This document shows positions 168 to 27,345 of a stretch of DNA of 64,000 nt, piece by piece (positions within the stretch are counted from its first letter, which is position 1; every line of letters begins with the position of its first letter). The position numbers were made by a program, and so were the translations under genes. The notes under the pieces were generated by a model. The model ran no database searches. It was not told where the DNA came from and was given only the letters and a program-made list of their open reading frames with translations. This stretch comes from a virus: positions 1 through 64,000 of the IMG/VR virus record IMGVR_UViG_3300029267_001213; one strand, given 5' to 3'.

Positions 168-749
168 ATGCAGCCATCCAGAGATGAAGCTCTCAGTGCG
201 GTAAAGACTATCCTGAAATATATTGGCGAGGATCCTGACAGAGAAGGACTTTTGAGAACTCCGGAACGAGTTGTTCGGTCATGGGATAAACTGTACGGCG
301 GTTATAAACAGAAACTTGAAGATGTAGTTAAAGCCGACTTCGATGCAGAGGGCTATGATCAGATAGTCATGCTGGACGACATTGAGTTTTGGTCTACATG
401 CGAGCATCATGTTTTACCTTTTTACGGCAAGGTGTCAGTTGGATATTTACCTGATAAAAAAACAAAGCGAGTAATTGGCGTGTCTAAGATGGCAAGAATT
501 GTAGAGATGTATGCTCGGCGTTTACAGATTCAGGAACGAATGACTCAGCAGATAGCGAATGCATTGAAGGAGAGCATTAATGCCGAAGGAGTGGGAGTTG
601 TAGTAAGAGCAAGACATCTTTGCATGGTGGCGAGGGGCGTACAAAAGCAACAGAGCTGGATGGTCACTTCAGAGATGCTCGGTTCATTTCGAAATGAGAC
701 GGCTACTCGGCAGGAATTCATAAGGCTGATAGAAATAGGAAGACAGTAA
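168..749 (+). CDS. folE: GTP cyclohydrolase I
   Basis: The enzyme opens GTP to 7,8-dihydroneopterin triphosphate, the first step of both folate and 7-deazaguanine (preQ0) synthesis. The 193-residue length is normal for the short type I form. The zinc-binding motif TCEHH sits at residues 77-81 (Cys78, His81) and the third ligand lies in HLCM (Cys152). The N-terminal [15 protein letters not shown] block and the [10 protein letters not shown] block are hallmarks of the family. ATG 168 follows a GGGAG site. The stop overlaps the next start (TAATG at 747-751). With queC and a DpdA-like gene downstream, its product most likely feeds DNA base modification rather than folate, which is inferred from context. 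Confidence 0.95.
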
Positions 750-1825
750 TGAAGATTCATTTACTGCCTATGGAACCGATTGAAGCGCGGTATTCTGCGG
801 ATTGGTATCGGTGGTGGCCGGAACAATTACGTGAGCGAGGCGTGGAGATAATTGTTTACGACGGCCAGCGATTACGGGACAGCCGTAAAGATTCTATTAA
901 GCACGGCGAATGGCTGGACGCTTTGGACACACATTATTACAAGAGTACACAGCTGGCCAGATTTATTGAAGCGTTGGACACTGGACAGGTTCGGGACTGT
1001 GACATCGTTTTATTATTGGAAGGATATAATCCGGTGATTGAGTCACTGGCTTATATGCGATTGGCTACCGGCATTCGATTTATTATAGCCAGCCTTTTTC
1101 ATGGTGGCACATGGGACGAGTGGGATTATCTTTCGCAGCGAGGCGCAAAGGAATGGATATGGGGTGCGGAGTTGAGTTGGCTGACAGCGAGTGACTTGGT
1201 TCTGGTGGCTACTGATTTTCATAGGAACATGATTGCCAAGCATGTGAAGTCTTATGCTACAGAAAAAATATACAACAAAGTATTAAACAAAATTAAGGTC
1301 ACGGGATTTCCTTTGAAGCTGAGTGAGCTGGACAGGTATCGAATTGACTGGAAGGCAAAAAAGGATGTTGTGGTTTTTCCTCACCGGCTGGCGAAGGAAA
1401 AAGGCCCTGAGATATTCAATGCGATGGAACTAAGTTTCAGAGCAAGGTGGCCCAAGAGCAAAGTAAGATTTGTTCGGACTGCTGAAATGATGAAGGAGGG
1501 AGCCAGCAAGGAGGCGTATTACAGACAGCTGGCTGAAGCGAGGGTCGTGGTGTCGTGTGCATTTCAGGAGACATGGGGAATAGCTCAGCTGGAAGGATGG
1601 TATCTCGGTGGTGTTCCTATTGTTCCGGACAGGTTATCATATCGGGAATTATATCCAGCTTGTTATAAATACGATACAGTGGAAAAGGCGGTCTATCTGA
1701 TAAGGAAAGGTATCGATAGGCCGGACGAGGCTCCGTTCGTACCTCAGAGAAAACCTGAAGATGCATGGGATAGAATAATAGATGTGCTCAAGGGCGCAGA
1801 AATATTGGAGGCGGAAAAGTGTTAG
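749..1825 (+). CDS. GT-B fold glycosyltransferase, GT4-like
   Basis: This 358-residue protein has the C-terminal half of a retaining GT-B glycosyltransferase. A nucleotide-sugar-side segment, FPHRLAKEKGPEIF, starts near residue 210. The E-X7-E motif (Glu274, Glu282) lies within FQETWGIAQLEGWYLGG, followed by VPIVPDRLSYRELYP. The N-terminal half has alternating strands and helices consistent with the acceptor domain. Its ATG overlaps the folE stop, and its 3' end overlaps the radical SAM start, so it is cotranslated with a DNA-modification pathway. The acceptor is unknown. A glucosyl-type transfer to a modified base in DNA, or to a nucleotide precursor, is the inference from context. A role in surface glycan modification is an alternative. 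Confidence 0.8.
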   Translation: MKIHLLPMEPIEARYSADWYRWWPEQLRERGVEIIVYDGQRLRDSRKDSIKHGEWLDALDTHYYKSTQLARFIEALDTGQVRDCDIVLLLEGYNPVIESLAYMRLATGIRFIIASLFHGGTWDEWDYLSQRGAKEWIWGAELSWLTASDLVLVATDFHRNMIAKHVKSYATEKIYNKVLNKIKVTGFPLKLSELDRYRIDWKAKKDVVVFPHRLAKEKGPEIFNAMELSFRARWPKSKVRFVRTAEMMKEGASKEAYYRQLAEARVVVSCAFQETWGIAQLEGWYLGGVPIVPDRLSYRELYPACYKYDTVEKAVYLIRKGIDRPDEAPFVPQRKPEDAWDRIIDVLKGAEILEAEKC

Positions 1826-3114
1826 TAATTATCCAGCCGGCAACTTTAGAAAGGGTATTGTCAGGCATTTGCTATAAGGCCAGTTGGCTTTATTTCGCAG
1901 CCAGAAAAATGAATCAGGAAGTAAAACTGTACGAAGAGGTTGGACTTTATGATTGCGATGAAATATTTAATCGACATGGCCCGGGCGCAATTTATGCTGT
2001 GGATTTGTCGAGCTATCCGCAACAGGATTTGGCGGAACAAATTTATCGCGAGTTCAGAGATTATAACCCGCGATTTTTCGGACTGGACGATTTGATAAAA
2101 AGCTGTGGGTTGCCTTTGTTTGATTATGAGACGGCTGGATATAAACTGGAAGATGGTGCATTCGATTATGCAGAAAATTATTCATTACTATTGGACCGGC
2201 TCAATACGGATTACGATTCACACGTGGCAACCTTGGATAATGGAAAGCCTTTTGTTCCGGCATTTTTCAGCGTAGGGTGTGATAGAAAATGTCCTTATTG
2301 TTATGTTGGATATACAAGCTTTCCTAATAATCAAATAAAAGTGGATAAGGCAAAACGGGTTATTGATTATTGCTCAGAGCGCGGCTGGAATATTCATTTT
2401 TATGATGAGGATTTTTTCATGCATCCGGACATTAATGAGATACTTGAATACATGCAGGATAAGGAAGTGCAGTGGATTTGCCTTACAACCAGCATTACAC
2501 TTGGGAAAAAGATCAGAGAGCTGGGTGCTGATTATATACGGGCATCTGGAAACCTGTTGAATGAAGTTGGAGTGGAAACAACGGATCCAGATGTGCTGGA
2601 TAAAAAACAGGACTTGCAGACCGTCATTGAAAGCGGACTTAATATTTTCTGGCTTACGGTTACATTTTTTCCCGGCGAAACAATTCGTAGTAAAAACATG
2701 ACCGGCCAATTTCTAAAGGCGTATGGGTATGATTATGATTCGATGGTACTGCGGATGAGATGCAATAGTACGGTCGGTGGCCTTGGACAGTTTTTTGTTC
2801 CTTACCATGGAACGCCGTGGTTTAAGAAAATTAATGACATGGGAGTAGTAATCGGTCGAAGACCTACTCGGTTGTGGCCGGGATTTGTGGGCAATAGATT
2901 TTTGCAGGAAAGACCGATGAAGATAGGAGACTTTGAAGCAGTTGATTCAAGATGGTTCTCCCTGTACGGACACAAGGATAAGGCCCATATGTTATGGCAG
3001 TTTTGTAACGGAACGAATACTGTGAAAAAACTTTGTAGCATTGACGGAGAGTTGGACCCGGGCGCACTTGTTCAAGTTGCTCAGCTAGCGCAATTAAATT
3101 TGGTAACAGCATGA
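1819..3114 (+). CDS. Radical SAM enzyme, B12-binding/Elp3-MiaB-like architecture
   Basis: The 431-residue product has the 4Fe-4S radical SAM motif C-X3-C-X2-C at Cys154, Cys158 and Cys161 (CDRKCPYC). About 150 residues precede it and look like the alpha/beta N-terminal domain seen in B12-dependent radical SAM proteins. A glycine-rich strand and helix region follows (HFYDEDFFMHPDINEIL), along with GVETTDPDVL and FPGETIRS, typical of the SAM barrel. The last 80 residues look like a small winged-helix or PqqD-like domain. The start is GTG 1819, seven bases after GGAGG, overlapping the preceding stop. It is far longer than QueE and has its cluster at residue 154 instead of near the N-terminus, so it is not QueE. 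The substrate is unknown; a 7-deazaguanine side chain or DNA-linked sugar is conceivable. Confidence 0.8.
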   Translation: MLVIIQPATLERVLSGICYKASWLYFAARKMNQEVKLYEEVGLYDCDEIFNRHGPGAIYAVDLSSYPQQDLAEQIYREFRDYNPRFFGLDDLIKSCGLPLFDYETAGYKLEDGAFDYAENYSLLLDRLNTDYDSHVATLDNGKPFVPAFFSVGCDRKCPYCYVGYTSFPNNQIKVDKAKRVIDYCSERGWNIHFYDEDFFMHPDINEILEYMQDKEVQWICLTTSITLGKKIRELGADYIRASGNLLNEVGVETTDPDVLDKKQDLQTVIESGLNIFWLTVTFFPGETIRSKNMTGQFLKAYGYDYDSMVLRMRCNSTVGGLGQFFVPYHGTPWFKKINDMGVVIGRRPTRLWPGFVGNRFLQERPMKIGDFEAVDSRWFSLYGHKDKAHMLWQFCNGTNTVKKLCSIDGELDPGALVQVAQLAQLNLVTA

Positions 3115-3983
3115 AAGTTTTTCTGGCTGGAGTAGAACTATTTTACGGCAAGTATAGAAATCAGCCGGACGTGTATAATCTATTGGCTGATTCAAATCAT
3201 TTTTATTGCTACAACAATAAGAAAGCTTGTACGGAAGCAGTTAAGATTGTGCCGGGACGGATACGTATTTGTGATAGTGGGGCGTATTTTTATATTCATA
3301 AGCATCGAGCCGAGGAGGTTAAATTCAAAGAGCTCGGAGTGGACAGCGGAAAGTTTGTTGTAAATTATATTAAATGGATTCAGCGCAATTGGGACAGCTT
3401 TGATTATTTCGTAGAATTCGATCTTCAGGAATTGTTGCCTTATGAAATGATAATCAGATGGCGAAAGCTTTTTGACCGGGCACAGATTTCAGAGAAGATG
3501 ATTTACGTTATGCATAAAGATAACACGATGGACGAATGGAAAGAGATGGTTGATTCTGCGGAAAGTAGATACTGCGGTATTTCTAAATTGCATTCGTGGA
3601 TGAGTTATACGAGATACATTAAGTATGCTTATGACAACCAGTGCAAGGTTCACGGTTTTGCAATGACAAGACCAGCTCAGACTTTGGAGTATCCTTTTTA
3701 TTCGGTTGATTCGGCAACATGGTATGCGGTTGCATTGTTCGGCCAGACGGTTAAATGGGACAGTGCGCTCGGTGCGGTGAAGGAATATCAATCAGGTGCA
3801 AACGTCTGGACTAAGAAAAATATGGCATATCTTCTTAAAAGGGGAATACCTTCATGGTATAAAGATACCAAGAATGAGAGAGTGTTGATTCACAAAATTC
3901 AGAACTCGGTGAAGGCATACGTTCAGTGGGAACAGCACTTGAAAAAATACTGGGCACAAAAAGGTGTTGTATGGCACGATTAA
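3111..3983 (+). CDS. dpdA: DpdA-like DNA guanine transglycosylase (TGT-like fold)
   Basis: This 290-residue protein resembles the phage DpdA branch of tRNA-guanine transglycosylases, which exchange guanine in DNA for a 7-deazaguanine base. Candidate catalytic residues are Asp55 in CDSGAY, matching the Asp of the TGT substrate pocket, and Asp200 in SVDSATW, matching the TGT nucleophile. KVHGFAM at about 179-185 matches the glycine turn before the nucleophile strand. There is no obvious C-terminal tRNA-binding zinc domain, as expected for a DNA-acting form. The start overlaps the previous stop (ATGA). The adjacent queC supports the call. Assignment rests on motifs, so specificity for DNA is inferred. 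Confidence 0.75.
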   Translation: MKVFLAGVELFYGKYRNQPDVYNLLADSNHFYCYNNKKACTEAVKIVPGRIRICDSGAYFYIHKHRAEEVKFKELGVDSGKFVVNYIKWIQRNWDSFDYFVEFDLQELLPYEMIIRWRKLFDRAQISEKMIYVMHKDNTMDEWKEMVDSAESRYCGISKLHSWMSYTRYIKYAYDNQCKVHGFAMTRPAQTLEYPFYSVDSATWYAVALFGQTVKWDSALGAVKEYQSGANVWTKKNMAYLLKRGIPSWYKDTKNERVLIHKIQNSVKAYVQWEQHLKKYWAQKGVVWHD

Positions 3984-4654
3984 ACAAAAAGGTTCTGGTG
4001 CTATTCAGCGGAGGAATGGATTCGGCTGTATGCTTGAAGTGGGCCATGGATCGTTACGAAAGGCCCAAGGCAATAATTTTTGACTATGGACAAAAGCATT
4101 CTGTGGAGATTAATCAGGCACGGCGAATATGCAGGAGTTGGAATGTTCCTTATGCTGAGGTAGATATTAAAACATTCGGCCACATGGTTGATTCCGGACT
4201 GGTTGATGATACCGGAGAGGTGGATGGCTTTCATAAACGGTTAAAACATTTACCGGCATCCTATGTCCCTAATAGAAACGCTTTATTTCTTACGCTGGCA
4301 CATGCATATGCACAGCGGCATAGAGTTAGCACTATGGTATTCGGTGCAAGTCAGACCGATGATTCTGGTTATCCGGACTGCAGAAAGCATTTCATAAACG
4401 GCATGGAGGCGGCATTGAATATAGGTTCTGATTCAGAGATAGCTATTTTGGCCCCATTGCTAAACAAGAACAAGGCGGACATATTCAAGATGGCATATGG
4501 GCAGGGTATTTTGCAGACGCTTATTGAAGAAACTCATACTTGTTATAATGGAATCAGGGAAAAGCATGATTGGGGCTACGGATGCGGGGAATGTCCATCC
4601 TGTAAAATAAGAAAAGAGGGCTGGAGCAAATATCGTGCAGTCAGTGACCATTGA
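3971..4654 (+). CDS. queC: 7-cyano-7-deazaguanine (preQ0) synthase
   Basis: QueC converts 7-carboxy-7-deazaguanine to preQ0 using ATP and ammonia. The PP-loop ATPase motif LFSGGMDS is at the N-terminus, followed by FDYGQKH, the block YVPNRNALFL, the GASQTDDSGYPDCR block, and the C-terminal zinc set (CYNG, then GCGECPSC). I place the start at ATG 3971 because it gives the standard QueC N-terminus (lysines, then VLVLFSGG) and has an AGGTG site; an upstream GTG at 3926 would add 15 unrelated residues. It overlaps dpdA by 13 bases and the next gene by 20. Length is 227 residues, usual for the family. Confidence 0.93.
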   Translation: MARLNKKVLVLFSGGMDSAVCLKWAMDRYERPKAIIFDYGQKHSVEINQARRICRSWNVPYAEVDIKTFGHMVDSGLVDDTGEVDGFHKRLKHLPASYVPNRNALFLTLAHAYAQRHRVSTMVFGASQTDDSGYPDCRKHFINGMEAALNIGSDSEIAILAPLLNKNKADIFKMAYGQGILQTLIEETHTCYNGIREKHDWGYGCGECPSCKIRKEGWSKYRAVSDH

Positions 4655-5072
4655 TGAAGCAGGGGCTGCAATTGCTGAAGCAATTAGCGGTGAGCATTTC
4701 GACTGGTATGTAGCCATTACCAGAGGGGGAATGGTTCCAGCGTGTGCTATTGCTCAAAGAACAGGCATGCATCAGGTGGATACATTTTGCTGCAAGAGTT
4801 ATGATAAGAATCGGCAACGGCATAATTTGGATTGTTCTTACAAGGGTTATTTTCATTTGAAGAATCAGCGTGTACTGGTGATAGATGATTTGGTTCATAC
4901 TGGAAAGACCATGCATAGAGCTTTAGTAATTCTCAGTCTGTTCGGTGCAAGAAAAATCAAAACAGCTGCAATTTATAAAAAGGTCGGTTCGATAGTTGAG
5001 CCGGATTATTATCTGCATGAGATTCCGGAAAGTGAATGGGTAAAATTTCCGTGGGAGACAGACAATGGCTAA
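4635..5072 (+). CDS. Purine-type phosphoribosyltransferase (Gpt/Hpt-like)
   Basis: The 145-residue product carries the PRPP-binding motif VLVIDDLVHTGKTM at residues 80-93 and an earlier TRGGMVPA loop at about 29-36, as in xanthine-guanine and hypoxanthine phosphoribosyltransferases. Such enzymes join a free base to PRPP to form a nucleotide. The start is GTG 4635, with GGAG upstream, inside the end of queC. Its position at the end of a 7-deazaguanine operon suggests the base may be guanine released by the DpdA exchange or a 7-deazaguanine intermediate; this is inference. General purine salvage is the plainer alternative. Confidence 0.85.
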   Translation: MQSVTIDEAGAAIAEAISGEHFDWYVAITRGGMVPACAIAQRTGMHQVDTFCCKSYDKNRQRHNLDCSYKGYFHLKNQRVLVIDDLVHTGKTMHRALVILSLFGARKIKTAAIYKKVGSIVEPDYYLHEIPESEWVKFPWETDNG

Positions 5073-5655
5073 AAGAAAGAACAAGGAAAAGTTTTCAATC
5101 GGATTCGTAGAGATACCACTGGACAGGCTTATTCAGGCGGACTGGAATTACAAGGACAACGATCCAGATCTGGCTGAAGCTCTTGAGCGAAATATCAGCG
5201 AGAGAGGGCAGGTCGAAAATCTTATAGTTCGGGAGCTGGGAAATGATTACGAAATAGTAAACGGTAATCACAGACTGCCGGTTCTTAAGAACTTGGGATA
5301 CGAGACGGCCATGTGTTACAACCTCGGCAATATTAATTCGGTAATGGCAAAGCGTATAGCAATCGAAACGAATGAGACGAGATTCGATAATGATGAAGTC
5401 ATTCTGGCGAAAGTCATCAAGGACATTACGGAAGAGATTCCTATGGACGAGCTGGAATATACGATGCCTTACGACAGAGACGAGCTGGATGAATATCTGG
5501 CTAATGCTTCAGACTTCGATTGGGAAGAGGAGAGTCAGGAAGGTGAGCCTACGGATCCGGCCGGTAATTCCGGTGAGGATGATGATCTTCAGGAGAATGA
5601 GATTGAGTGTCCACATTGCGGCGGGATAATTATTGTGGAAGAGGAGAAGGAGTAA
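5065..5655 (+). CDS. ParB-like domain protein with C-terminal CPHCG knuckle (paralogue 1)
   Basis: This 196-residue protein begins with a ParB/sulfiredoxin-type domain. The motif EIVNGNHRLPVLKNLGY (about residues 68-84) matches the GxHR signature of ParB N-terminal domains, which bind CTP in ParB proper. A long acidic linker follows, then a C-terminal CPHCGG with only two cysteines. It overlaps the phosphoribosyltransferase gene by 8 bases and is closely related to the next gene. Phage ParB-like proteins often sit next to terminase or DNA-modification genes. Whether this one is a nuclease, a CTPase or a DNA-binding adaptor cannot be decided here. Confidence 0.75.
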   Translation: MAKRKNKEKFSIGFVEIPLDRLIQADWNYKDNDPDLAEALERNISERGQVENLIVRELGNDYEIVNGNHRLPVLKNLGYETAMCYNLGNINSVMAKRIAIETNETRFDNDEVILAKVIKDITEEIPMDELEYTMPYDRDELDEYLANASDFDWEEESQEGEPTDPAGNSGEDDDLQENEIECPHCGGIIIVEEEKE

Positions 5656-6233: not shown

Positions 6234-7496
6234 ATGATTCAAACAGCACAGACATTCAAATCGGACGGCCTTTTTCTGGCAATGCCTTATACGGAATTGA
6301 GCAAAGGTGTTGTACTTCCAGATCTAAAATCTGCACGTGGTTATGTTGTTCTTTCCGGCGTAGGTAAATTTTTATATCGCAGTAACAACAGGGACAAAGT
6401 ATTACGAGCTGCATTGACTTATGCAAAACGGACAGGCGTAGATACTCAGATAGGAGAGATTATCGGTATAAGTGCTGGCAGACCTGTTTGCAAGCGTGCG
6501 GTTGTTGTGGCTGTTGATAAGGTAAAGAATCCATTAAAGGTAAATGAATTCTTACGACGTGTGGACAGTGCTGCTAAAAAGGCCAAGTCCATTACGGATC
6601 CAATGGTAGTGAATACGGTCAACAGGGCACTGGACGATTTGGTCCGAAAACCGTGGAATAGAATGTCGGATGCTGAAGTAACGGCAGCTGTTAATTCGGC
6701 AAACAGAACGCTGGATAAATTATCGAAAAAATGGCCGAAGGCTACTCTGGATAAATTCGAAAAGAATTTTACGGTAACGAGCACGTCAGTTGTGAGAGAT
6801 ACACGGAGGGTACAGCGTACTGTCCACAATCTGGATATTGGCATTAATCTCTTACAATCGGATCAGGTTGCTGTAGAACACATGGTCAAGAATCAAAGCC
6901 TGTTTGCGCGAAATAGGTATAAAGATATTTCTACTGCAGCCAGCAAAAAAGCTCGGCGGATTGTTTCAGAAGGATTAGCCGCAGGGCTTGGACCGGACGA
7001 TATTGCTAAAGATTTAAGAAAAGGCATTGGTCCGATGTACAGTGCGGTTCAGAAAAATTATTACAGGACTTTGGCTCATGTATTTGTAGGACGATCTCGA
7101 GCATGGGCGCAGGGCACGAGTTATAAGGACGCCGGTATAACTCGGTATCGAGTGTCTGCAGTTCTGGACGAAGTTACTACGGATACATGTAGAGCAATGA
7201 ACGGTAGGATATTACCTGTAAGGGAGTCACTGGCTATTCAGAGAAATGCAATGGAACTTGAAAAGCCCGAAGACATTAAATATGAGCAGCCATTTATGAG
7301 TGAAAGAAAAGGCGAGATAGGAATTTTTGATGCGGATGGCAATTGGGATTCGTTGTTTCAGGTGCGTGAGTCTGGACTTGGCACTCAGGATGTTGGAAGA
7401 TACAGATCTATGGTTTCAAATGCAGACTTGATTGATAAAGGTATTGGATTCCCTCCATATCATTTTCATTGTAGGACGATAACCTTGCCAGAGTAA
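6234..7496 (+). CDS. Head morphogenesis protein, SPP1 gp7 / Mu gpF-like
   Basis: The 420-residue product has the MuF-type C-terminal domain: YYRTLAHVFVGRSRAWAQG at about 283-301, then LDEVTTDTCRAMNGRILP and the terminal PPYHFHCRTITLPE. This Cys/His arrangement is the signature of minor head proteins packaged inside or bound to the portal. The N-terminal two thirds are helical and Lys/Arg rich. The portal gene normally precedes this gene but is absent, so the portal and terminase must lie elsewhere. The start at 6234 has only a weak upstream GATGGA site. Confidence 0.85.
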   Translation: MIQTAQTFKSDGLFLAMPYTELSKGVVLPDLKSARGYVVLSGVGKFLYRSNNRDKVLRAALTYAKRTGVDTQIGEIIGISAGRPVCKRAVVVAVDKVKNPLKVNEFLRRVDSAAKKAKSITDPMVVNTVNRALDDLVRKPWNRMSDAEVTAAVNSANRTLDKLSKKWPKATLDKFEKNFTVTSTSVVRDTRRVQRTVHNLDIGINLLQSDQVAVEHMVKNQSLFARNRYKDISTAASKKARRIVSEGLAAGLGPDDIAKDLRKGIGPMYSAVQKNYYRTLAHVFVGRSRAWAQGTSYKDAGITRYRVSAVLDEVTTDTCRAMNGRILPVRESLAIQRNAMELEKPEDIKYEQPFMSERKGEIGIFDADGNWDSLFQVRESGLGTQDVGRYRSMVSNADLIDKGIGFPPYHFHCRTITLPE

Positions 7497-21009: not shown

Positions 21010-23211
21010 ATGGAACTCCTATCTGCAAAAGTAGTAATAAGAGAAGAAGCCCCTAAGATCAGATCTGCTCCGAGTTTACCGACGGCGGTACTTGGAATTG
21101 TAGGTGTAACGGAACGTGGTCCACTGGATCAGACACTTCTGGTTACATCATGGGGAGAGTACGTATCTCAGTACGGTAATTACATTACGGACAGCGATGT
21201 TCCGTTGGCAGTGCATTCTTTCTTCATTAATGATGGAAAGTATCTCTACATGAGAAGGATATGTCACTTTACGGACGTGGACAGTCCATCATCGTTTACC
21301 GCGGTCAAGGCATCGAGAATGCTTCAGACAGATGGTGGCGGTGCAACAGCCGGGGCGGTTGTCTCAAGCAACTCGGCACCGTTCGAGCTGGCTGATGGAG
21401 ATACGCTGGACATCACAACGGACTTGGGCGGACCTACTACGGCAACATTTAACGGCACGGCTCCAAGCGTAACGGATACGACTTCTTATCCAGTGGGACC
21501 CGGAACGGGTGTTCTACAGGTCAAGGTAGATCAGGGCAGTACTCAGAGCATAACGTTTGCTGGAACTGAGACTACGGCGGATGACATTGCGGCAACAATC
21601 AATGCACAGATTGAAGGCGCGAGAGCAATAGTCGTAGCTGGTCCACAGGTGAAGATCGAATCTGACAAAAAAGGTACTGGCGGATATGTCGAAATCGTGG
21701 CTAATCCTTCGGCGAATCCCTTGCTTACTTTTTCGACTTCGGAAGTGCAGGGCGGAGGAAATGTTGCGGACATCGAAGCGGTAACAGGGGCCGAAGTCAA
21801 GAGCGTGGTTGAAGGTGCGGTATCAGGAGTTGAGGTATCCGGCGATACTTACGTAACCATAGCCCGCAGCGATACCGGGTCAACCAAGTACGTGACGGTT
21901 GCGGCCTCGAGCACGGCAGACGATGAGATGGGATTCGACAATCTGCAGCACGACGGCACGGACGATTCTCCGCAAGATACTTTGAATGTCGAAGGCAAGA
22001 CGGAAGGGACTTATGCTCACAACGTAAAGACGAAGGTTGAAGACGCCAGCAATGGTGACAGCGACTATTTCAATTTTTACGTTCTGGAAGATGACATAAT
22101 CACGGAACGGTTTCCCGATGTGACAATGGAAGATGAAGCGGATCCGCGATATGTCGAGACGATAGTCAACGATGAAGATAACGGTTCAATGCTGATTCAG
22201 GTTGAGGATCAGGAACTGGCGGGAACAAGGCGACCGGCAAATCAGACATCGAGCGCATTGGCTGGCGGAGATGATGGACTGACCAGCTTGGCCGATGTGG
22301 ATTACATAGGCTCTGAAGCTGGAAAGACCGGCCTGTATGCTTTCGATATTATATCGGACATAACCTTGATAGCGGTTCCGGGCATAGCTACTTCAGGCGT
22401 GCAGAATGCAATGATTACATATTGCGATACACACAGAAGCGGAATGATGCACGCATGTCTGGATCCACCGGCGAGCCAGACTGCATTGCAGATGAAGACC
22501 TATGTTGAGACAACGGCATCGCTGAAGAACCTTTCAGAGCATGGATTCATATGGTGGCCGAGAATCAAGGTGGTCAATCCTAATGAGACCATTTACGGCA
22601 ATGAGAAATATGTCGTAATTCCACCGGCGGCATCATTGGCCGGTGTCATGGCTCGGAATGATTCACGAGGGCCCGGCGGAATTGCTGAAGCTCCAGCGGG
22701 AATTGAGTACGGATTGATCAAGGACTGCGTAGGTCTGGAGACGGACGAAGCTCTGGATCCGAAAAAGCGGGACTTGGTTTATCCGGCGTTGATTAATCCG
22801 ATAACCAAGATTGGAAGTTCGCCTTATCATTCAGACGGCAGCAGAACACTGAAGGAGAACGGCAACTGGCCGAGCATCGGACAGAGACGGCTGGTTACTT
22901 ACATCGAGAGGGTAGCGAGAATTGCTGTACTGTATGCCAAGCACAGGAATATCACGAGAAGACTCAAGAACAGTGTTGAAGGAACGATGGAACAGTTCCT
23001 TCTTGAGCTGACCAGCTTGGGAGTTTTTGCGTCAACAAAGCCAAGAGAGGCATTCTGGATTGACGTATCAGACGAGTTGAATCCACCGAGCGTGGCATTT
23101 GCAAGACAGGTCAGAGTAAGAATTGGTCTGGCGACTGCTTATCCGGGTGAGTTCATCATCATATCATTCTCACAGGATTTAAGGGCACTTGAGCAGGCGC
23201 TTCTTTTCTAA
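21010..23211 (+). CDS. Tail sheath protein
   Basis: The 733-residue product matches contractile-tail sheath proteins. The C-terminal domain (about 560-733) carries GQRRLVTYIERVARIAVLYA, a helix with RRLKNSVEGTMEQFLLEL, and the final strands VRVRIGLATAYPGEFIIISF. The N-terminal core begins with the handshake-like strand segment (VVIREEAPKIRSAPSLPTAV). A large Ig/beta-rich insertion of about 300 residues sits between (about 100-400), making it longer than P2-type sheaths. ATG 21010 follows TACGGAGG. The tube gene is next. This is the key evidence for myovirus morphology. Confidence 0.9.
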   Translation: MELLSAKVVIREEAPKIRSAPSLPTAVLGIVGVTERGPLDQTLLVTSWGEYVSQYGNYITDSDVPLAVHSFFINDGKYLYMRRICHFTDVDSPSSFTAVKASRMLQTDGGGATAGAVVSSNSAPFELADGDTLDITTDLGGPTTATFNGTAPSVTDTTSYPVGPGTGVLQVKVDQGSTQSITFAGTETTADDIAATINAQIEGARAIVVAGPQVKIESDKKGTGGYVEIVANPSANPLLTFSTSEVQGGGNVADIEAVTGAEVKSVVEGAVSGVEVSGDTYVTIARSDTGSTKYVTVAASSTADDEMGFDNLQHDGTDDSPQDTLNVEGKTEGTYAHNVKTKVEDASNGDSDYFNFYVLEDDIITERFPDVTMEDEADPRYVETIVNDEDNGSMLIQVEDQELAGTRRPANQTSSALAGGDDGLTSLADVDYIGSEAGKTGLYAFDIISDITLIAVPGIATSGVQNAMITYCDTHRSGMMHACLDPPASQTALQMKTYVETTASLKNLSEHGFIWWPRIKVVNPNETIYGNEKYVVIPPAASLAGVMARNDSRGPGGIAEAPAGIEYGLIKDCVGLETDEALDPKKRDLVYPALINPITKIGSSPYHSDGSRTLKENGNWPSIGQRRLVTYIERVARIAVLYAKHRNITRRLKNSVEGTMEQFLLELTSLGVFASTKPREAFWIDVSDELNPPSVAFARQVRVRIGLATAYPGEFIIISFSQDLRALEQALLF

Positions 23212-24888: not shown

Positions 24889-27345
24889 ATGGCACTCAAT
24901 CAATCCATGGGAATCGGTTTCGTCATTACAGGCAAAGACCTCGCTTCCCGACAAATCAACAAAGTCAAAGGTAATCTTAGAGGGTTAGGTAAGCAGTCCG
25001 AAGAGACTCAGCAGACTATGGAGTCAGCAATGAAGATGACTGCTGCTGGCATTGGATTGCTTACTGTAGGACTGGTCGGTTTGTCTGCGGAGATGAAGCT
25101 GGCTGGAGTAGCTGGTGAATTCGAACACGTAATGGCCGGGGTGGGTGCTACGGCACGGGCTTCCGAAGCAGAAATGAAAATGCTGAAACAGGCGGCGATT
25201 GAGGCTGGTATAGCAACGCAATTTTCGCCATTGGAAGCTGGACGTGGATTAAAGGTTCTGGCAGCGCAAGGTCTGGCGGCTTCGGATCAGGTTACAGCAT
25301 TGATTCCTGTACTGGACTTGGCTGCAGCTGGAGAAATATCCGTGGCGGAATCTGCGGAAGCCGCGGTCGGTGCCGTCAAAGCCTTCGGAATGGAAATGAC
25401 GGATTTGACCATGACGGCGGATAAAATGATGCGGGCTACGACTATTTCAAATTTACGAGCATCTGAGTTTTCAATTACGATGGGCCGGGCTGGTGCAATG
25501 GCAAAGACATTCGGTCAGTCTCTGGATGATACGCTGATTGGCCTTGGTGCCTTAAGAAATATGAACGTTCAGGCAAGCGTAGCAACAACGTCATACAATG
25601 AGGCGGTCAGGCGTCTGGCTGTTGACCAGGCAGGACAGCGTGAGGCACAGCGATTGGGCGTTCAGATATTCGATAAACAGACCGGCAAGATGCGGTCGGC
25701 TCTGGATATTATGCTGGACGTAGCTGAAGCTACAAAAGACTTGGGCGACAAGGAAAAAAATCGTGCATTGAATCAGATGTTCGGCGTGCGAGGCATTGCG
25801 GCGTTTAATGCTATTGCGGAAATAAATATCAAGACCATGAGAGACGGCAAGGAAGTAACCCTAAAGGGTGCCGAAGCTTTGAAAGAATATCGCAAACAGA
25901 TGAGCAGTGCTGGTGGAGCATCCGAAAAGTTCAGAGAGAAACTTCTTTCGACATACGAAGGACAGAAGACACTGTTGAAAGGTTCCATTGAGACGCTGGC
26001 TATTACGCTTGGAGAGCCTCTGGCCAATCTGTTCAAGCCCGGAGTAACGTTCATTATTGAGAAAGTTAATGAGCTTATTAAGGCATTTCAGGATATGGAT
26101 CCAGAAACAAAAAAATGGGTTGCCGGGATTGCTGTAGCAATTCCTGTAATGATTACGGTTGGCGGTGCGATACTTACAATAGTAGGAGCGTTTGCTTTGC
26201 TGAAGCTAGCTATTGTTGCAGCTGGAATTACTCTTGCAGGAATAGGCATGGGGTTTGTATGGGTAACGGCCATTATTGCCGGACTGGTTGCAGCCGGGGC
26301 ACTTCTTTATAAAGCGTATTCGGAAAATCTTGGTGGGCTTAAAGATTCCGTAGGTGACTTAGGTAAATCATTCAAAGGACTATTTGGTGCATTGAAAAAT
26401 ATCGGCAAGGCTTTCGTAGAAAATGAAAAAATAATGGCGGCATTAGGTTATGCTTTCACAGGTCTAGCGTGGATTGTGGGAAAAGTATTTTCGTTTATAG
26501 CGACTACCATTGAGACAGCGGTTGAAGTAATAAGAAATATTTTTGAAGGATTGGGGTTATTGCTGGAAGGTGACTTCAAAGGATTCGGTAAGAAAATGGT
26601 CCGGGCGCTTTTGTCAGCATTTACCGGAGTGGGCAAAGCTCTTGCGGAAGTGTTTGGTGTTGAGATGAAAGATATTCACAGTGAAGTAGATCTCACAATT
26701 ACTTGGATTACCGAGAAATCACTTAAAGCACTTGTGGCATGGAAAAAATTTAGACTTGAATTCCTAGTCAGCAAGGAAGGCAAGGCAGCACAGCAACTTA
26801 GATCTGATATTGAAAAACTGGAAAAAGAATTGTCCACAATGAAAACGGCTGCAGAATTGATGGCTGAACAGGAAAAAGGTCCTACAGGAAAAAGGCAGTT
26901 TGCAGGTGGTCCGGGTGTTTCGGAAATGCCAACTATAATGGATGACTTTATTAAGGAGATGGAATCTGCACAGCGCGAACAGCAAAAAATGAGCGTACCG
27001 CGAAAGAGAATTATTCACGAGACCGAAGAGTATGCAGATTACATCGAGCGCGGACCTGAGATGTCATTCGAAAGGCGTCCTGTATCTGAAGAAATTATGC
27101 AGGAGGCTTTAGGTCAGACGGCTGTTCCTGAAGAATACAGGGAAACAGAAAGACAGAATGTTAAACAGGCAATGCAGGAATCCATGGAAGCGACTGTTGA
27201 GCAATTAAGTACTCAATTAACGGATAAATTTTTGAATGGCATCAGCGGGATGAGTGTTACCATGGATCAGTATGAAGTTGGTCGCATTGTTACACATGGA
27301 GAGCGTGCTCGGCAGGATAGAGAATTAGGGGCCGGAGAAGAATAA
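24889..27345 (+). CDS. Tail tape measure protein, TP901 type
   Basis: The 818-residue protein lies right after the chaperone genes. Its core (about residues 80-330) is the TP901 tape-measure domain, with FEHVMAGVGATARASEAEM, GLKVLAAQGLAASDQV and ARDQAG/QRLGVQIFDK-type segments. A hydrophobic cluster of two or three transmembrane helices occupies about 408-475 (WVAGIAVAIPVMITVGGAIL on), expected for proteins that enter the host membrane. The C-terminal 200 residues are helical and charged. It sets tail length, which would be a fairly short tail by its size. The site before ATG 24889 is weak. Confidence 0.85.
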   Translation: MALNQSMGIGFVITGKDLASRQINKVKGNLRGLGKQSEETQQTMESAMKMTAAGIGLLTVGLVGLSAEMKLAGVAGEFEHVMAGVGATARASEAEMKMLKQAAIEAGIATQFSPLEAGRGLKVLAAQGLAASDQVTALIPVLDLAAAGEISVAESAEAAVGAVKAFGMEMTDLTMTADKMMRATTISNLRASEFSITMGRAGAMAKTFGQSLDDTLIGLGALRNMNVQASVATTSYNEAVRRLAVDQAGQREAQRLGVQIFDKQTGKMRSALDIMLDVAEATKDLGDKEKNRALNQMFGVRGIAAFNAIAEINIKTMRDGKEVTLKGAEALKEYRKQMSSAGGASEKFREKLLSTYEGQKTLLKGSIETLAITLGEPLANLFKPGVTFIIEKVNELIKAFQDMDPETKKWVAGIAVAIPVMITVGGAILTIVGAFALLKLAIVAAGITLAGIGMGFVWVTAIIAGLVAAGALLYKAYSENLGGLKDSVGDLGKSFKGLFGALKNIGKAFVENEKIMAALGYAFTGLAWIVGKVFSFIATTIETAVEVIRNIFEGLGLLLEGDFKGFGKKMVRALLSAFTGVGKALAEVFGVEMKDIHSEVDLTITWITEKSLKALVAWKKFRLEFLVSKEGKAAQQLRSDIEKLEKELSTMKTAAELMAEQEKGPTGKRQFAGGPGVSEMPTIMDDFIKEMESAQREQQKMSVPRKRIIHETEEYADYIERGPEMSFERRPVSEEIMQEALGQTAVPEEYRETERQNVKQAMQESMEATVEQLSTQLTDKFLNGISGMSVTMDQYEVGRIVTHGERARQDRELGAGEE

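Follow-up and report, generated by a model that had tools for sequence, protein, structure and literature searches.

Six overlapping genes near the left end of the window (the whole stretch of DNA analysed here, bases 1–64000 of the 86,553-base virus record IMGVR_UViG_3300029267_001213) appear, on balance, to make a glycosylated and further edited 7-deazaguanine in phage DNA, a reading to which we give a probability of roughly 0.57. The genes lie head to tail on the + strand between positions 168 and 5072 and encode FolE, a glycosyltransferase (GT), a radical S-adenosylmethionine enzyme (rSAM), a DpdA-like transglycosylase, QueC and a phosphoribosyltransferase (PRT). All six open reading frames (ORFs) were recovered with the positions and overlaps given by a sequence-only reading of this DNA: the first base of GT is also the last of FolE (749), and the rSAM, DpdA, QueC and PRT genes overlap by 7, 4, 13 and 20 bases, respectively. 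That reading had also suggested a sugar-bearing or otherwise hypermodified 7-deazaguanine, which gene context supports, with 7-deazaguanine genes beside GT relatives in 80/80 loci and the few rSAM relatives that were found all in DpdA loci.

FolE, QueD, QueE and QueC make preQ0, and DpdA inserts preQ0 into DNA. Judged by their characterised homologues, FolE, which is predicted to take the first step of preQ0 synthesis, would together with QueD and QueE convert GTP to 7-carboxy-7-deazaguanine (CDG), and QueC would convert CDG to preQ0. DpdA would then put the 7-deazaguanine in place of guanine in replicated DNA, the ParB-like proteins probably assisting as DpdB is said to do in bacterial Dpd systems, and PRT would return the released guanine towards GTP. 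The fold of GT, its conserved residues and its recurrent gene context lead us to infer that it glycosylates the inserted base, moving a sugar from a nucleotide sugar onto the 7-substituent, probably with retention of configuration; rSAM would edit the substituent or the attached sugar. With this product in the DNA, guanines would be concealed from restriction enzymes. QueD and QueE had been noted as not seen, which holds for the window and fails for the virus: the predicted preQ0 set of FolE, QueD, QueE and QueC, plus DpdA, is complete within one virus record, because QueE and QueD are encoded elsewhere in the same 86,553 bases. While this core of the pathway is known, a sugar on 7-deazaguanine in DNA would be new, as far as can be judged from the open-licence literature, which is limited in coverage and gave no report of one.

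GT as a regular member of a viral 7-deazaguanine module

When viral contigs were scanned with a profile, at least 581 stretches proved to encode GT relatives; tblastn located them in 20 phage records. We compared the best 80 viral GT loci (59 once near-copies were removed; <85% identity) with 80 random viral loci, taken from 91 matching stretches and totalling 0.67 Mb against 1.38 Mb for the GT loci. At least one of FolE, QueE, QueD and a transglycosylase-like gene was present in 80/80 GT loci, whereas each of these four was found in 0/80 control loci. Individually, FolE occurred in 70 of the GT loci, QueE in 65, QueD in 14, a transglycosylase-like gene in 72, the family phrog_17812 in 79, PRT in 46 (0/80 in the controls by the same profile) and QueC in none. 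The non-redundant set gave a similar picture (FolE 49, QueE 45, transglycosylase-like 51 and phrog_17812 58 out of 59). The context profiles were iterated on the GT loci themselves, which favours these loci; the Pfam FolE model, which is free of such bias, exceeded its own cut-off in 44 of 50 whole GT records. GT belongs routinely to a large viral 7-deazaguanine module, and its earlier description as a non-standard insert does not stand.

Neighbourhoods were inspected in six of the phage records, and 7-deazaguanine genes lay near GT in five: ACP17 (QueD, FolE, transglycosylase-like, GT, QueE), vB_Pa-PAC2 (transglycosylase-like, GT, PRT, QueE), Phosso (GT, FolE, QueE), X1 (FolE, GT, annotated queuine tRNA-ribosyltransferase, QueE) and BUCT-ZZ01 (QueE, PRT, QueD, FolE, transglycosylase-like, GT). 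GT homologues are not confined to surface-polysaccharide loci, and a role for GT as a surface-polysaccharide enzyme was rejected on the 80/80 context.

Several further genes recur around GT. A family of ∼180 amino acids (aa) with no Pfam match (L036 7123–7668; L005 6320–6718) was present in 59/86 GT loci, and by eye a 132-aa protein beside the transglycosylase of ACP17 resembles it. Sugar-nucleotide-type genes (epimerase, UDP-sugar dehydrogenase and cytidylyltransferase, named by eye) recur near GT in loci around L017, L029 and L053. Possible further tailoring genes are an ORF lying between QueE and FolE that by eye resembles a methyltransferase gene (L275 1120–1863) and an AAA_28 ORF between rSAM and GT (L010 9411–9998). 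In L014 (2472–7034), DpdA and GT are accompanied by a Vut_1 (YhhQ-like) transporter and a cytidylyltransferase, with no FolE, QueD or QueE in 15 kb; this locus is possibly a salvage version of the module.

Fold and conserved residues of GT

GT matched Pfam models below threshold only (4.9e-3), and a sequence search of the PDB gave no match better than E 0.05. An AlphaFold2 (AF2) model based on an alignment that included 59 viral relatives reached a predicted local distance difference test score (pLDDT) of 92.6 and adopts the GT-B fold that the sequence-only reading had named. Among the solved structures listed, those nearest to it over the whole length were GT4-type GT-B enzymes (sucrose-phosphate synthase, Z 26.4; MshA and BshA, Z 25.8 each), MshA and BshA at 12–15% identity, and the tetrahydrobiopterin glucosyltransferases 9v0l and 5zes matched as well, at Z 22.8 and 22.3. 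Across 60 aligned GT sequences, E274 and E282 (an E-x7-E motif), R213, K218 and H118 were invariant. On this model, GT is probably a retaining, GT4-like GT-B enzyme, and its likeness to MshA and BshA gives a weak hint at N-acetylglucosamine (GlcNAc) as the donor sugar. In Xanthomonas phage PhiXhv-12 (5621–8855 of L095), a distant GT homologue lies beside an annotated N-acetyl-alpha-D-glucosaminyl L-malate deacetylase 2 and a 521-aa QueC-like fusion, neighbours that could hint at the same donor.

GT and QueC mark alternative branches among DpdA loci

We next took the best 80 of 157 viral DpdA relatives. Some contigs carry two handles (L196 = L014, L223 = L012, L277 = L194 and L278 = L195), and L275 and L276 seem to be near-copies. 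Over 9,083 bases L004 is 99.8% identical to the window, and it is not independent; it falls among the 33 DpdA loci without GT for the sole reason that its contig begins within rSAM. GT was present in 47/80 DpdA loci, with the GT and DpdA ORFs at most 200 bases apart in 34 of the 47. Among the 66 loci with a synthesis gene, 41 had GT without QueC, 19 had QueC without GT, 6 had neither and none had both (Fisher 1e-11); after removal of redundancy (n = 57) the numbers were 36, 16, 5 and 0 (Fisher 3.5e-10). QueC was also found in none of the 35 whole records searched out of the 47 GT-bearing DpdA records, the window's own record and L004 aside. In 50 whole records of the 80 GT set, weak partial QueC matches turned up in 6, a single one of which passed the cut-off, with 24 bits. 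GT and QueC thus mark alternative pathway branches, the GT branch likely leaving at CDG.

The family phrog_17812 followed GT closely, being present in 44/47 DpdA loci with GT against 0/33 without. In the remaining three the contig begins at or close to GT, and one of them (L202) retains a fragment of phrog_17812 at its start. This QueD-like family of ∼125 aa (e.g. L033 842–1201) has invariant H12, H38 and H40 and lacks the QueD-type cysteine four residues ahead of HxH. Its kinship with QueD is suggested by comparison by eye and by profile alignment, in which hhalign gave a weak score (P 7e-4, probability 26%), and was not shown by Pfam or PDB searches (none better than E 0.05 in the PDB). phrog_17812 may replace QueC or act as a tailoring enzyme. 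Because nearly all relatives examined lack QueC and have phrog_17812, the family-wide substrate of glycosylation is probably derived from CDG and not from preQ0, with the window phage as an exception.

The radical SAM enzyme accompanies DpdA and GT

rSAM carries its cluster motif, CxxxCxxC, at residues 154–161, preceded by ∼150 residues with no B12-binding Pfam match; only weak matches to the PhpK and HpnJ models were seen. No tblastn match was found among 50,697 phage records, a PDB sequence search gave nothing better than E 0.05, and plasmids yielded three weak tblastn matches, each covering at most one third of the protein. A scan of cellular genomes returned three matches to the core only (21–30% identity), which we took as generic radical SAM proteins. 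The single-sequence structure prediction (pLDDT 34) was not used.

Relatives were found through DpdA loci and then through an alignment of rSAM itself: L194 (48% identical; GT-rSAM-DpdA-ParB), L195 (26%, lacking most of the part ahead of the cluster motif; FolE-rSAM-DpdA-GT-phrog_17812-ParB) and L275/L276 (49%, retrieved with rSAM itself; in L275 QueD-QueE-methyltransferase-like-FolE-phrog_17812-GT-rSAM-DpdA-ParB-terminase-like). Each adjoins DpdA, and GT is nearby wherever the contig reaches. The order GT-rSAM-DpdA, which the sequence-only reading proposed to look for in other phages, is shared by the window, L194, L275 and L012 (GT-rSAM-DpdA-ParB-QueD, with rSAM of another type), and rSAM also lies between GT and DpdA in L013, where DpdA was recognised by eye and not by profile. 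Other rSAM types occur close to GT, namely a SPASM-type in L010, L012 and L020 and a shorter type in L011 and L013; the window rSAM had no SPASM hit in Pfam. The GT sequences of the window, L010, L011, L012 and L013 form a clade (support 100/88), and all five have an rSAM nearby. Since one position is occupied by different rSAM types, they probably serve a common pathway.

Overall, an extra rSAM was present in 12/47 DpdA loci with GT against 1/32 without (p 0.011), or 10/41 against 1/27 in the non-redundant set (p 0.040). The link between rSAM and GT is consistent in the few window-type cases and suggestive, of moderate strength, in general. From this context we propose that rSAM edits the base or the sugar on it.

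DpdA and a second, transglycosylase-like family

In DpdA, D55, D104, H135, H181, S198, S201 and W204 were invariant in nine sequences (the window and eight relatives, of which L004 is near-identical). DpdA had no Pfam match at all, the Pfam TGT model matched nothing in the window's record, and PDB sequence searches with DpdA and with the second, PAC2/ACP17-type transglycosylase gave nothing better than E 0.05. The latter family has an invariant D99-S-G-G, Q104, D144, G194, G222 and D291, which we take to resemble the TGT signature, and a member in phage X1 is annotated as queuine tRNA-ribosyltransferase; on these two grounds we call the family transglycosylase-like. Pfam TGT was reached by 2/20 members of its alignment, at best with 0.044.

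Layout of the cassette and its neighbours

The features are collected in Table 1. QueC reached an E-value of 1.1e-66 in the whole-record search. For QueE, the best five NCBIfam matches were all QueE models (2e-21 to 3e-14), each below its cut-off, and QueD matched TIGR00039 (8e-24) and TIGR03367 (8e-22), both below the NCBI cut-offs. PRT is nearest to xanthine phosphoribosyltransferase (NF006613, 7.1e-22, below cut-off), and we propose that it recycles guanine released by DpdA.

Table 1. Predicted genes of the cassette, the ParB-like genes that follow it and the remaining preQ0 synthesis genes of the record
Feature	Position	Strand	Evidence
FolE, GTP cyclohydrolase I, 193 aa	168..749	+	PF01227 1.6e-70, TIGR00063 1.1e-68, both over cut-off
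GT, GT-B/GT4-like glycosyltransferase, 358 aa	749..1825	+	AF2 model fold, invariant residues, gene context
rSAM, radical SAM enzyme, 431 aa, GTG start	1819..3114	+	PF04055 4.3e-11, over cut-off
DpdA-like DNA guanine transglycosylase, 290 aa	3111..3983	+	phrog_887 'queuine tRNA-ribosyltransferase' 1.3e-17
QueC, 7-cyano-7-deazaguanine synthase, 227 aa, ATG start	3971..4654	+	PF06508 2.8e-65, TIGR00364 1.3e-63, over cut-off
PRT, phosphoribosyltransferase, 145 aa, GTG start	4635..5072	+	PF00156 1.5e-14, over cut-off
ParB-like protein 1, 196 aa, overlaps PRT	5065..5655	+	phrog_620 1.3e-19
ParB-like protein 2, 184 aa	5659..6213	+	PF02195 9.8e-8, over cut-off
QueE	record 69663-70331, outside window		PF04055 over cut-off; QueE NCBIfam models
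QueD	record 84978-85406, outside window		PF01242 over cut-off

The overlapping run extends past PRT into two genes for ParB-like proteins, which are paralogues with 47% identity; ParB_N was matched in both, in one over and in the other below the Pfam cut-off. Relatives were found in 51/80 DpdA loci and start less than 500 bases after DpdA in 41. DpdB has been described as a ParB-like ATPase (in the available part of PMC12839542), and on that analogy ParB-like protein 1 is a possible counterpart of DpdB.

A head gene follows at 6234–7496, and the window also holds genes of a contractile-tailed phage (tail sheath, 21010–23211; tape measure, 24889–27345). At the right end of the record, QueD lies with a few small genes and a DUF5131 radical SAM gene (from record position 86190), which is cut by the record end. 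Record positions 80917–84588 hold a run of small ORFs, partly zinc-ribbon-like, whose C-termini often show, by eye, an IKERI-like tail, possibly merely the ribosome-binding site of the next overlapping gene. A formylglycine-generating-enzyme-like (FGE-sulfatase) protein is encoded at record positions 77457–78335 (PF03781, 7e-40).

Weighing the proposed pathway against its alternatives

Several observations weigh against a glycosylated and edited base. The nitrile of preQ0 is no obvious glycosyl acceptor, which means that either a step is missing or the acceptor resembles CDG or 7-amido-7-deazaguanine (ADG). The window phage is unusual within the GT family in having both GT and QueC, given the 35 other GT/DpdA records that lack QueC, and phrog_17812 was not found in its 86.5 kb, so its product may differ. 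None of 40 records exceeded the Pfam TGT cut-off, and one, L015, gave a weak match (1.3e-5, below cut-off). The distant GT homologue of PhiXhv-12 has a QueC-like gene only, with no FolE, QueE or phrog_17812 nearby, and the GT tree has long branches. For rSAM, two of the three independent relatives (L194 and L195) were retrieved by way of DpdA, a route that biases towards the link; an ORF with CxxxCxxC other than QueE occurred in only 8/80 GT loci (6 within ∼1.5 kb of GT); and extra rSAMs are a minority, 35/47 GT/DpdA loci having none within 4 kb.

With regard to the acceptor, rSAM might prepare it, or it might be CDG or the amide that QueC would make en route. The best placed of the alternatives, if still rather unlikely, shares the glycosylation step: GT would modify the base, but rSAM would work on the still free base, ahead of its insertion, and might for instance reduce or decarboxylate the 7-substituent to create an acceptor. 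The missing acceptor on preQ0 would fit this order of events, as would the overlap of the rSAM gene with both DpdA and GT, and the CDG-making enzyme QueE also belongs to the radical SAM enzymes. The 35 loci without an extra rSAM nevertheless imply that there an acceptor can arise without one.

It is also conceivable, though we consider it quite unlikely, that the DNA carries plain dPreQ0 (or dCDG) and that GT and rSAM are passengers altering host surface polysaccharide or another target. The minimal set of five core enzymes gives dPreQ0 in phages CAjan and Rosebush (according to the available part of PMC6884629), and glycosyltransferases of pelagimyophages have been assigned to host O-chain change (PMC7029224, likewise available in part). 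Passengers would hardly account for 7-deazaguanine genes in all 80 GT loci and none of the controls, for the close spacing of GT and DpdA in 34/47 loci, or for the partition of GT against QueC among DpdA loci.

Very unlikely, in our view, is that the transglycosylase and GT act on tRNA and give a glycosylated queuosine-like base akin to mannosyl-queuosine. QTMAN and QTGAL, which glycosylate queuosine in animal tRNA, are an RNA precedent for a 7-deazaguanine glycosyltransferase (PMC12518689, in the part available); the transglycosylase is nearest to a phage family, phrog_887, however, and in many loci the next gene is ParB-like, an arrangement known from Dpd-type DNA systems. Production of a glycosylated pterin by FolE, the QueD-like phrog_17812 protein and GT, comparable to that of cyanobacteria with tetrahydrobiopterin, is scarcely credible: the tetrahydrobiopterin glucosyltransferases do appear among the fold matches, but with Z scores not above those of other GT4-type enzymes (top 26.4), QueE and the transglycosylases have no known role with pterin glycosides yet occur in 65/80 and 72/80 loci, and phrog_17812 was not found in the window phage.

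Beyond glycosylation and editing in the window phage, we tentatively propose, at less than even odds, a large undescribed viral pathway. CDG would be its branch point, phrog_17812 would replace QueC, DpdA- or PAC2-type enzymes would insert the base, a GT4-like enzyme would add the sugar and interchangeable rSAMs would remodel the product. The window phage would then be a hybrid that gained QueC, lost phrog_17812 and makes a different hypermodified guanine.

Glycosylated DNA bases are known for 5-hydroxymethyl pyrimidines. If our reading of the cassette is correct, such a modification would be common to hundreds of viral contigs, many with T4-like replication genes (by eye), and a bulky sugar on a purine would protect against restriction and perhaps also against CRISPR. 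Such a pathway would also offer a role for unexplained phage genes, namely GT, phrog_17812, the extra radical SAMs and the phosphoribosyltransferase. Cultured phages bearing GT exist (ACP17, PA5oct-like, Phosso and X1), so the reading is testable at once.

Comparison with known systems

MshA and BshA act on small cytosolic acceptors. They share the whole-length fold with the window GT (Z ∼24–26), whose family has E-x7-E, at 12–15% identity. Cui (2023) reportedly described four further phage 7-deazaguanine derivatives, with DpdL, DpdM and DpdN and with methyl, formyl and decarboxylating steps but without glycosylation; by that account, tailoring enzymes on phage 7-deazaguanines are common to both and the addition of a sugar differs. 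Post-replicative DNA glycosylation is shared with the T4 DNA glucosyltransferases on hydroxymethylcytosine (PMC13216743, available in part), whereas base, acceptor and gene context differ; the T4 enzymes were not among the 50 GT fold matches listed, which does not exclude kinship. QTMAN and QTGAL likewise place a sugar on a 7-deazaguanine nucleoside, theirs being in RNA, on cyclopentene hydroxyl acceptors of animal tRNA (from the same part of PMC12518689). Bacterial Dpd systems (DpdA, DpdB and DpdC) resemble the cassette in pairing a transglycosylase with a ParB-like partner, GT and rSAM being extra in the window. With preQ0/DpdA modification in Enterobacteria phage 9g, CAjan and Rosebush (Hutinet 2019, PMC6884629; a word search of the main text gives no hit for 'glycosyl' or 'radical'), the window phage shares FolE, QueD, QueE, QueC and a DpdA-type enzyme in one phage. 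To this set the window phage adds GT and rSAM; nearly all GT relatives searched are without QueC.

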